NCBI GenBank assembly: GCA_026987075.1
Contig: JALSNI010000004.1
Span: forward strand, 1-63,400
From: Persephonella sp.
GTDB lineage: Bacteria > Aquificota > Aquificia > Aquificales > Hydrogenothermaceae
Direction: 5' to 3'
Length of the DNA stretch: 63,400 nt
The notes below the pieces were generated by a model. That model did no database searches and had not been told where the DNA came from. It saw only the letters and a program-made list of their open reading frames with translations. The position numbers were made by a program, and so were the translations under genes. Positions within the stretch are counted from its first letter, which is position 1; each line of letters starts with the position of its first letter. Below, one piece after another: positions 24,978 to 30,028 of the stretch.

Positions 24978-25550
24978 TTATATGAATAATTCTAATATTT
25001 TTAGTTTAAAGGAGTTTTTTTCTTTCTTCAGAATACCTCTGCCTATCACTTCTCCGTTTACTAACAGCTCAGCATCAAAGTGTGACTGTTGTGATATTAA
25101 AATTTCAGTTGTTTCTCCTATATTTTCTATCTCCGAAAGGGGAACAGTTTTACTAAAAATTCTGATTACTACTGGTAAGGATATATCTTTCTTTTCCTCT
25201 TTTTTAATACTTTCTTTTTTTTGGGAAGTAAAATGTTTTATAACAATGCCATAATCAAATCTTTGCTGGTCTGCTGTTATGTTGAGCACCGTATCTTCAG
25301 GATTTATGCTAATCTCCTCCACAACTTCTGTTTTAATGCTGGCTGGATTAAATAACTTTTCAAAAATTCTCTCAGCCCAATCTGCACCCTTAGAAAAAAC
25401 TGTCATAACAAAAAGGTCACTTCTTACAAACAAGCGAGCATCTTCTGAAAAGATAGAGTAATAATCCCCACTTACTGATTTCTTTTCTTTTACATCTGCT
25501 GGTTCTACACTGTCAAATATATCTGAAATTAATGGGATAATCTCTTTAAT
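24978..25550 (-). CDS. SpoA-domain (FliN-like) protein, probable ATT start
   Basis: The C-terminal 70 residues fit a SpoA (FliN/FliM C-terminal) domain: PVVIRIFSKTVPLSEIENI followed by the AELLVNGEVIGRGIL strand pair, as in flagellar switch protein FliN. The rest is unrecognised. The open frame extends well upstream of the first conventional start (TTG 25433, no ribosome site), back to a stop at 25566-25568. AGGAGG at 25557-25562 lies six bases before ATT 25550, the best start (190 residues). It follows the FliM-like gene directly and precedes the sensor kinase. A type III secretion YscQ-like protein is an alternative, but no secretion genes are present. Confidence 0.6.
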   Translation of the reverse strand: MKEIIPLISDIFDSVEPADVKEKKSVSGDYYSIFSEDARLFVRSDLFVMTVFSKGADWAERIFEKLFNPASIKTEVVEEISINPEDTVLNITADQQRFDYGIVIKHFTSQKKESIKKEEKKDISLPVVIRIFSKTVPLSEIENIGETTEILISQQSHFDAELLVNGEVIGRGILKKEKNSFKLKILELFI

Positions 25551-27534: not shown

Positions 27535-28392
27535 CAGGGCTTTTGTTGCCTTTAGAAGTTGTTTCTGACCAACCTTTGCATATCTTGCTGTAGTTATAGG
27601 GGATGCGTGACCCAAAAGCTCCTGAATAATTCTTAACTCTGCACCTGATTGAAGTGCTATAGTTGCAGCTGTATGCCTTAATTTATGAGGATGTAGAACT
27701 ATATTACATCTCTTTCCAATATTAACTATCATTTTCCACAGGGAGTAGTAAGACATAGGAAAAACTCTTTCTGAACTGTTGAACCTTAGATATTCTGCAA
27801 ACAGCTTCATTGGTTTTCCTGTTATAGGAACTTCTCTCTCCTTTCCCCCTTTACCTTCAACTCTTATGTAAATAATGTCCTCCTCTTCTATCTCTAACTG
27901 GTAGATAGAGTCGCAGTTGTATATGTGATTGTTCTTTTCTATGAGAATGTTTTCTCTTCTTATGCCTAAAAGCTCTGAAGACCTCAATCCTGTAGTAAGT
28001 AATAAAACAATAATAACCCTTTCTTTAAGAGTTTTTGTGCTTTTTATTAGCTTTTCTATCTCTTCGTGGGAAAGGGCAGAAGGTATTTTTTGAGATACCT
28101 TTGGTCTATGGGATTTTGTGATAGGAGAAGAGTTTACCATTTCAAGGTCTATCAGGTATTCAAAAAACGAATTAATACAGGCAAGTTTCCGTGATATTGT
28201 AGAAGATTTTTTCTTATTTGACTGGAGAACCATTCTAAATTTTGCTATGTCTGCCTTTGTTACTTTCTCAACCTCTTTGTCCCCAACTATACTAATAAAC
28301 TGCTTCAAATCTGAGCGATAATTTTTGACAGTGTTCTCTGATTTATCTGATATATACGACAAGAATAACTCAACACATTCAGAAATCTTCAT
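27514..28392 (-). CDS. Tyrosine recombinase (XerC/XerD type)
   Basis: A 292-residue site-specific recombinase. The N-terminal SAM-like core-binding domain spans about 1-95. The catalytic residues are all visible: R137 (TGLRSSEL), K181 (GKGGKERE), H236 and R239 (HPHKLRHTAA), H262 (LLGHASPITTA) and nucleophile Y271. Length and position in core genes, without phage or integron neighbours, suggest a chromosome dimer resolution recombinase rather than an integrase, but an att-site integrase cannot be excluded. I saw no dif-like site close by. It overlaps the end of ubiX by 14 bases and shares 21 bases with the end of pabB. Confidence 0.92.
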   Translation of the reverse strand: MKISECVELFLSYISDKSENTVKNYRSDLKQFISIVGDKEVEKVTKADIAKFRMVLQSNKKKSSTISRKLACINSFFEYLIDLEMVNSSPITKSHRPKVSQKIPSALSHEEIEKLIKSTKTLKERVIIVLLLTTGLRSSELLGIRRENILIEKNNHIYNCDSIYQLEIEEEDIIYIRVEGKGGKEREVPITGKPMKLFAEYLRFNSSERVFPMSYYSLWKMIVNIGKRCNIVLHPHKLRHTAATIALQSGAELRIIQELLGHASPITTARYAKVGQKQLLKATKALSQNIKL

Positions 28393-28957
28393 TTCTCCAC
28401 CTTTTATATAAACTGTGTTCTATACCAAAACTGTCTAAAACTTTACCTACAACAAAGTTAATCATGTCTTCAACTGTTTTGGGTCTGGTATAAAATCCCG
28501 GTGATGCTACTGCTATAGTTCCACCTGCCTGCGCTACCTTTTCCATATTTTTTATGTGTATAAGGGAAAGGGGCATCTCCCTGACTAATAAAAACAGTTT
28601 TTTCCTCTCTTTCAGTGCAACATCACACACCCTGTGTATAAGATTGGAAGAAATTCCATTAGCCACAGCCCCTAATGTTCCTGTAGAACAAGGAGCAACG
28701 ATTACTCCTTCTGTTTCTACAATCCTTGTTCCACTGGATATAGGAGCATCAATCTCATTTTGAGAGTAAAAACTACAGTTTTCAGGGAGATTGTTTAAGA
28801 ATTGTTCCTTTTCAATGCTTAGTTCTTTTTCCATGACTTTAAATCCACCTTCAGACACGACAAGGTAAATATAGTAATTTTTTGATAAAACATTCAACAG
28901 CTTTAAACCATATACAGTCCCGCTTGCTCCTGTGATACAAAGCACTATTTTTTTCAT
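28379..28957 (-). CDS. ubiX: Flavin prenyltransferase
   Basis: A 192-residue UbiX/Pad1 enzyme that prenylates FMN to make the cofactor of UbiD decarboxylases. The N-terminus KKIVLCITGASGTVYGLKLL is the flavin-binding start, and APCSTGTLGAVANGISSNLI and MPLSLIHIKNM are conserved. I place the start at ATG 28957 rather than 29053: the extra 32 residues are not conserved and reach across the promoter of the divergent DedA gene. No Shine-Dalgarno is evident; CATAAT six bases before the ATG could be a -10 element of a leaderless message. The recombinase gene follows. Confidence 0.93.
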   Translation of the reverse strand: MKKIVLCITGASGTVYGLKLLNVLSKNYYIYLVVSEGGFKVMEKELSIEKEQFLNNLPENCSFYSQNEIDAPISSGTRIVETEGVIVAPCSTGTLGAVANGISSNLIHRVCDVALKERKKLFLLVREMPLSLIHIKNMEKVAQAGGTIAVASPGFYTRPKTVEDMINFVVGKVLDSFGIEHSLYKRWRNEDF

Positions 28958-28988
28958 GACACAATTATGCCACACATAAACATAAGTG

Positions 28989-29018
28989 TATAATAATAAT
29001 CTATCAGTTTTTGGGAGG
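28989..29018 (+). promoter_or_regulatory. -10 element and ribosome binding site of the DedA gene
   Basis: TATAAT at 28989-28994 is a consensus -10 hexamer; only a weak -35 (TTATGC, 28965-28970) lies 18 bases upstream. Transcription would start near 29001. GGGAGG at 29013-29018 follows, eight bases before ATA 29027. The ribosome site decides the start of the gene because no ATG, GTG or TTG lies at the right distance. Confidence 0.5.
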
Positions 29019-29026
29019 TCGTTTAA

Positions 29027-29593
29027 ATAGAAAGTCTGGAACACTTTCTCCAAAATTACGGCTACATAGCTGTATTTGTAGGAACATTTTTAGAAGGGGA
29101 AATATTCCTTTTAGTTGTTGGTTTTTTTATAAAGCTAAAACTTCTTAATCCTTACATTTCCCTTGTATTTGCAATGGCAGGGGCTTTCTTTCACGAAATC
29201 ATCTACTTTTTTCTTGGAAAGTGGAAGGGAAGAGAGATTTTGCTCAGAAACAAGCATACGAGAAAAGAATACAGAAGAGCTAAAAAGTTATTAGAAAAAT
29301 ATGGAATTTTATCTATTTTTATTATTAGATTTTTATATGGTATGAGAATGATACCTATGATGCTTCTGGGAGCTACAGGTTTTAATCCTTTAAAGTTTAT
29401 CTTCTTTAACCTTATATCCTTATTCTTCTGGGCAGTTATATACTTATCTATAGGTTATTTCTTTGGAAAAGCAGCGGAACATTTCTTTGGTGAGGCTAAG
29501 GAGTATTATTTTGTATTTATAGGTGTAATTATCCTCTTACTTCTGCTTATACTTGTGCATCCTAAAATTTTAGAAAAGCTTAAAAAAAACTAA
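29027..29593 (+). CDS. DedA family membrane protein, probable ATA start
   Basis: A DedA/SNARE-associated family integral membrane protein, a group of lipid scramblase/transport proteins (undecaprenyl phosphate or phosphatidylethanolamine flipping in some bacteria). The conserved N-terminal stretch NYGYIAVFVGTFLEGE begins at about residue 10 when read from ATA 29027 and would be lost if the first ATG (29174) were used. A stop codon lies immediately before (29024-29026), GGAGG is eight bases upstream, and the resulting 188 residues equal the usual length. Other motifs: FIIRFLYGMRMIPMMLLGATG. ATA is the only plausible start. It is transcribed alone, divergent from ubiX. Confidence 0.85.
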   Translation: MESLEHFLQNYGYIAVFVGTFLEGEIFLLVVGFFIKLKLLNPYISLVFAMAGAFFHEIIYFFLGKWKGREILLRNKHTRKEYRRAKKLLEKYGILSIFIIRFLYGMRMIPMMLLGATGFNPLKFIFFNLISLFFWAVIYLSIGYFFGKAAEHFFGEAKEYYFVFIGVIILLLLLILVHPKILEKLKKN

Positions 29594-30028
29594 CTACTTA
29601 ACTACAAGAACAGACTGGTTTGCATACTTAACTAAATTTCCTGCAGTCGTTCCTAATATCATTCTTTTAAAACCACCAACTCCCCTATGGCCTACTACTA
29701 TAAGGTCACAACCATTTTCGTCTGCATAGGACATAAGTTCTTCTGCAGGTTCCCCTTCTCTCACAACAGTTATACTCTCTACCCCATTTTCCTCAGCAAT
29801 TTCTCTTGCCTCTTTCAAAAATTTTTCTTCCTTTGAAATCTCTTCCTTTTCATACTCCTCAATCTCTTCTGGGGAAATGTAATCTATAGCTGCAAACTCA
29901 AAAGGCCTGACCACACCAACAATGTGGAGTTTACCTCCACAGGATTTAGCAAATTCAATAGCCTTTTTCAAAGCTTTCATACTGGGCTCAGAACCGTCAT
30001 ATCCAACTAAAATATTTTTAAATGGCAT
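29594..30028 (-). CDS. Universal stress protein (UspA family)
   Basis: A 144-residue single-domain Usp protein. It begins KNILVGYDGSEPS and ends with the ATP-binding loop GHRGVGGFKRMILGTTAGNLV (G-x2-G-x9-G-T), placing it in the ATP-binding (MJ0577-like) class. GAGGGAATAAG is the ribosome site for ATG 30028, one base after the leuS stop, so the two genes are co-transcribed. The end abuts the DedA gene stop, convergent. Confidence 0.93.
   Translation of the reverse strand: MPFKNILVGYDGSEPSMKALKKAIEFAKSCGGKLHIVGVVRPFEFAAIDYISPEEIEEYEKEEISKEEKFLKEAREIAEENGVESITVVREGEPAEELMSYADENGCDLIVVGHRGVGGFKRMILGTTAGNLVKYANQSVLVVK

Follow-up and report, generated by a model that had tools for sequence, protein, structure and literature searches.

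The gene for initiation factor 3 (IF3), infC, starts with AUU in Escherichia coli and is autoregulated through its own product. Conserved AUA starts have been reported by Ribo-Ret for infC and ccpN of Staphylococcus aureus, a species in which AUA and AUU reporters yield about 10-30% of AUG (PMC13009471, Kohl et al. 2026). IF3 disfavours weak third-position pairs, and AUU/CAU initiation decreases in vitro as IF3 is raised (PMC10158994). The E. coli pcnB gene also has a weak AUN start, AUU, which limits its expression according to the passage of PMC1780047 that cites it.

In this study, we examine a gene for a DedA/VTT-family membrane protein of the Hydrogenothermaceae that very probably begins with AUA. 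It resembles infC in combining a possibly selected AUN start and a good Shine-Dalgarno sequence with an otherwise normal gene, and the genus's own infC starts with AUU. In contrast to the autoregulated infC, however, its product is a membrane protein for which no link to IF3 is known. With ccpN of S. aureus and Bacillus subtilis (PMC13009471) it shares the AUA start, a strong Shine-Dalgarno sequence and conservation between genera; the difference is that ccpN encodes a transcription repressor in Bacillota, seen by Ribo-Ret, whereas the predicted start of the DedA gene is conserved over several genera of Hydrogenothermaceae. From pcnB, as cited in PMC1780047, it differs in codon, gene and phylum. 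The preliminary description of this DNA had called AUA initiation very rare, which holds for bacteria in general but overlooks the conserved cases already reported in S. aureus (PMC13009471).

The gene lies in a 63,400-nucleotide stretch of Persephonella DNA, which we call the window. Its features are as follows.

28989-28994, plus strand: TATAAT, a likely -10 box that together with ATGCCA at 28967 gives a 10/12 match; putative promoter.
29013-29018, plus strand: Shine-Dalgarno sequence GGGAGG, 8 nt 5' of ATA, from the window letters and the spacing in orthologues.
29019-29026, plus strand: 8-nt spacer between GGGAGG and ATA.
29024-29026, plus strand: in-frame TAA directly 5' of ATA, which rules out any upstream start in the DedA frame.
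29027-29029, plus strand: predicted AUA start codon (ATA in DNA), from orthologue start alignments and substitution pattern.
29027-29593, plus strand: gene for a membrane protein of the DedA/VTT family, 188 codons followed by a stop, with invariant GTF-EGE (residues 19-25) and RF-YGMR (residues 101-107).
29174-29176, plus strand: codon 50, ATG, the earliest in-frame canonical codon and not the start; a start here drops invariant residues between 2 and 40.

On re-reading, the first placement of GGGAGG eight bases before ATA 29027, and of TAA at 29024-29026, proved exact to the base. The frame is open for 188 codons from ATA to the stop at 29591-29593, and the first ATG, GTG or TTG within it is ATG 29174, exactly 49 codons downstream. 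Calling restricted to these three codons therefore begins at codon 50 and loses 49 residues, as had been anticipated, and the conserved N-terminus was rightly placed upstream of that ATG, since GTFLEGE and other invariant residues precede it. The DedA gene is flanked by a divergent ubiX-like gene (28379-28957, minus strand) and by a convergent gene that resembles those for universal stress proteins (29594-30028, minus strand). The two names come from sequence only; with this layout the DedA gene appears to be transcribed alone.

In a search of relatives, nearly all genomes of the family yielded a single orthologue each, and no close orthologue was found outside the Hydrogenothermaceae. Named orthologue records in a second collection come from Persephonella, Hydrogenothermus, Sulfurihydrogenibium and other Hydrogenothermaceae. 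Start codons were compared in 36 orthologues from ten genera of the family, with the DNA read at the start. Codon 1 is an isoleucine codon in all 36 (32 ATA, three ATC and one ATT) and ATG in none, and every one of the 14 members of the window's genus has ATA. The preliminary description had suggested looking in relatives for ATG in place of this ATA; no family member has it there, and ATG stands instead one codon upstream in a nested clade. This is the Sulfurihydrogenibium clade (Sulfurihydrogenibium and a sister genus), whose five sequences all have the ATG; Sulfurihydrogenibium-type orthologues read ATG ATA GAA. At the aligned column of codon 1 itself, ATG occurs only in very distant homologues from Magnetococcales (L093, L098). 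A sequencing error at ATA, the other doubt raised at the outset, was rejected because independent genomes carry the same codon, including the complete chromosome G015.

The codons in front of ATA bear directly on its role. A TAA or TAG directly precedes codon 1 in 12 of the 14 genus members, and in the remaining orthologues the preceding codon is mostly ACC, ACT, AGG, ACA, AAA, AGA, TCA, ATT or GTT. Two orthologues have TTG at this position and three CTG (L015, L020, L022, L023 and L027 together). Against AUA as the start, these codons could serve in those five orthologues, as could the upstream ATG in the five of the Sulfurihydrogenibium clade. Setting aside the five with a preceding ATG leaves 31 orthologues. 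Of these, 26 have no NTG either at the site or immediately before it, and over all 31 codon 1 reads ATA 29 times and ATC twice. This uniformity exceeds chance expectation, since ATA makes up 51% of isoleucine codons in a congener (5321 ATA, 3748 ATT, 1439 ATC) and the other well-conserved isoleucine column is mixed (18 ATA, 10 ATT, 5 ATC). Because ATA is the commonest isoleucine codon, the third base at codon 1 carries only part of the information; nor are the lineages independent of one another.

The substitution pattern favours the AUA start as well, because coding-type change begins right after ATA. When the window was compared with 13 relatives (the genus and G015), the three positions of codons 2-49 differed by 13, 3 and 50%, respectively, as is typical of a conserved protein, whereas those of the 13 codons upstream of ATA differed by 38, 38 and 44%, as is typical of non-coding DNA. 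Invariant residues within the first 40 are E2, E5, F7, G12, Y13 and GTF-EGE. With an isoleucine codon kept in 36 of 36 orthologues, the assignment of ATA 29027 as the start codon thus stands, and we regard it as authentic with high confidence.

Whether the weakness of this start is itself selected is an evenly balanced question. We read it as selected because the single A-to-G reversion is absent in all orthologues. The strongest competing account, which we consider a substantial possibility though a tentative one, accepts AUA as the real start and treats it as a tolerated product of drift, compensated by the strong Shine-Dalgarno sequence and without regulation. Strong Shine-Dalgarno sites are indeed present in most orthologues, the core lying 5-11 nt before ATA and mostly 8 nt; this range overlaps the genome norm, in which spacing peaks at 5-8 nt (373 ordinary genes of the congener G006). 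The codons flanking ATA show free variation, ATC stands at codon 1 in two g4 orthologues, and one clade carries ATG one codon upstream, all of which fit drift. On the other hand, one transition would restore ATG, yet none of the 36 orthologues, which span ten genera, has ATG at codon 1, and AUN starts are otherwise almost absent from the compared genomes.

A further alternative concerns history only. The ancestor may have read ATG-ATA and lost the ATG several times, with initiation sliding by one codon on each occasion; we think this unlikely, though not negligibly so. The ATG ATA GAA of Sulfurihydrogenibium-type orthologues and the TTG ATA and CTG ATA of the five described above could be remnants of such a state. 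In the protein tree, however, the ATG-preceded clade (99/96 support) is nested inside the AUN set, adjoining g10, on a rooting that uses a very long outgroup branch and is not secure. A single gain of ATG is simpler on this topology than several losses, and the simplest history would be an AUN start in the family ancestor, after which ATG was gained once at the codon immediately upstream. Under either history, AUN is the present-day start in the 26 orthologues without NTG.

The upstream signals leave little space for a start elsewhere. The TATAAT/ATGCCA match in the window is on its own not above shuffles; TATAAT recurs, however, 36-38 nt before ATA in 12 of the 13 listed loci of the window's genus and in L015. 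This position points to a transcript start probably near 29001 and an untranslated leader of about 26 nt, with little room for an upstream start. An upstream start in another frame, joined to the DedA frame by ribosomal frameshifting or slippage, for example on the heptamer TTTAAAT at 29022-29028, is very improbable. The heptamer is present in the window as T TTA AAT, and two other genes of these genomes resemble conserved A-run frameshift cases. The candidate was rejected because the heptamer is not conserved (orthologues have TTTAGAT, CCTAAAT or CACACCATA); moreover, the region upstream of ATA lacks coding-type conservation, and no start codon recurs among orthologues in any frame of the short predicted leader. 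Least credible of all is a start at ATG 29174 with the upstream open stretch untranslated, which is what a canonical gene caller chooses and which leaves a protein still scoring 48.1 bits to PF09335. It was rejected on conservation: codons 2-49 show no less conservation than the remainder, with substitutions at third positions, and the invariant GTF-EGE would be lost. The codon-50 ATG is not shared, G006 having its first canonical codon 27 codons down; no orthologue begins at the equivalent of this ATG, and distant homologues likewise start near codon 1.

With AUA as the start, its decoding can be considered. The tRNA set of the congener G006 is ordinary, with three CAU tRNAs, one of them initiator-type by its 5' sequence, and none with the anticodon UAU. 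A special tRNA reading AUA at initiation was therefore rejected on the G006 set; most likely the normal initiator decodes AUA, tolerating a mismatch at the third position. That AUA is both the start and decoded in this way we hold to be likely. The strong, well-spaced Shine-Dalgarno sequence would position the 30S subunit at AUA, which the cell's usual fMet initiator tRNA, with anticodon CAU, would read through a C.A mismatch at the third position, so that the protein would begin with methionine despite its AUA codon. By analogy with other mismatched starts, which are poor and discriminated against by IF3, DedA synthesis would be low and sensitive to IF3 or to growth state, and selection would keep AUA from reverting to AUG. 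Initiation at AUA in the cell, an fMet N-terminus, low yield and IF3 sensitivity are predictions of this scheme, low expression and IF3 control being expected by analogy with the described systems.

The family of the product is clear and its function less so. The full protein read from ATA scores 54.7 bits against PF09335 (VTT/DedA; cut-off 33.9), which places it in the family. DedA proteins of the COG0586 group, such as UptA, share this domain (PMC10127716). The acidic residues of GTFLEGE and the two arginines of RFLYGMR resemble the acidic and basic tips of the re-entrant helices in UptA-type proteins (PMC10127716), and the two glutamates of the N-terminal GTFLEGE are plausible equivalents of the acidic tips. 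The window protein differs from UptA in scoring far under the cut-off of the NCBIfam UptA model NF052604 (48.9 bits against 250), so that flippase activity, probably on a lipid carrier, is only a likely guess. A search of solved structures gave nothing useful for the DedA protein.

To place the DedA start among others, all open frames of G006 were compared with 800 kb of G015 (about 41% of its main contig) after removal of overlapping antisense frames. Homology extended at least 10 codons before the first canonical start in 36 of 881 ortholog pairs. Read by eye, most of these proved to be RNA genes, frames broken in one of the genomes, or stretches that overlap a gene upstream; the only AUN starts left were infC (AUU) and the DedA gene (AUA). 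Two candidates for CTG starts and two for A-run frameshifting also remained. In the window's own genome infC starts as GGAGGTAAATTAGTC-ATT-CAGGA (G000:C5:9909-9931), the AUU following GGAGG with a 10-nt spacer, and the same arrangement is found in eight congeners; G006 and G015 also have the AUU start. Comparison of the window with G006 also drew attention to a FliMN_C-like gene on the minus strand.

24978-25550, minus strand: FliMN_C-like gene with an AUU start at 25550-25548.

Its FliMN_C match, at 21.2 bits, is just below the Pfam cut-off. The start reads AGGAGG-CCAGAT-ATT (6-nt spacer), and GGAGG-N5/6-ATT-AAR-GA recurs where this gene begins in seven genomes of the genus, the window's own included. 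Across this partial census and the window comparison, infC and the FliMN-like gene were the only two other conserved AUN starts.

Four further frames are recorded as separate observations, all in contig C1 of G006. A ylxR-like gene (g6_+_1708908) is split by a conserved nine-A run (TGTAAAAAAAAAGA), as is its G015 counterpart (L228-L267 range); its N-terminal VRTCIICK lies in another frame, which suggests programmed slippage or frameshifting. A large membrane-protein frame (g6_-_642790) and its G015 counterpart open with TTTTGA and then a run of A, and have no canonical start for 42-82 codons, possibly through slippage or a missed start. Possible CTG starts belong to g6_+_824581 and g6_+_1268640, a nitrilase-like gene (GGAGGTCAGTTAAACTG), with CTG in G015 too, and an alanine-racemase-like gene, with CTG in G006 and TTG in G015.

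In Persephonella-type bacteria the three genes with AUN starts, infC (AUU), the DedA gene (AUA) and the FliMN-like flagellar switch gene (AUU), might form a regulon governed by how much IF3 is available or by the fidelity of initiation. We consider this improbable; if true, envelope lipid recycling and flagellar assembly would rise and fall with translation-initiation capacity. A literature search for a DedA gene with an AUA start found none. Conserved AUN starts are a known class; within the literature searched, which is only part of the whole, this gene, its lineage and how widely the start is conserved appear to be new. For gene annotation, calling by ATG, GTG and TTG removes an invariant motif along with the 49 residues from the window gene and misplaces the start in relatives. 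For the family, the predicted AUA start would be conserved family-wide outside model bacteria, on a gene for a membrane protein rather than a regulator, and the AUN start kept in eight genera, set against the two-genus clade with AUG one codon upstream, may offer a natural test of selection for weak starts.
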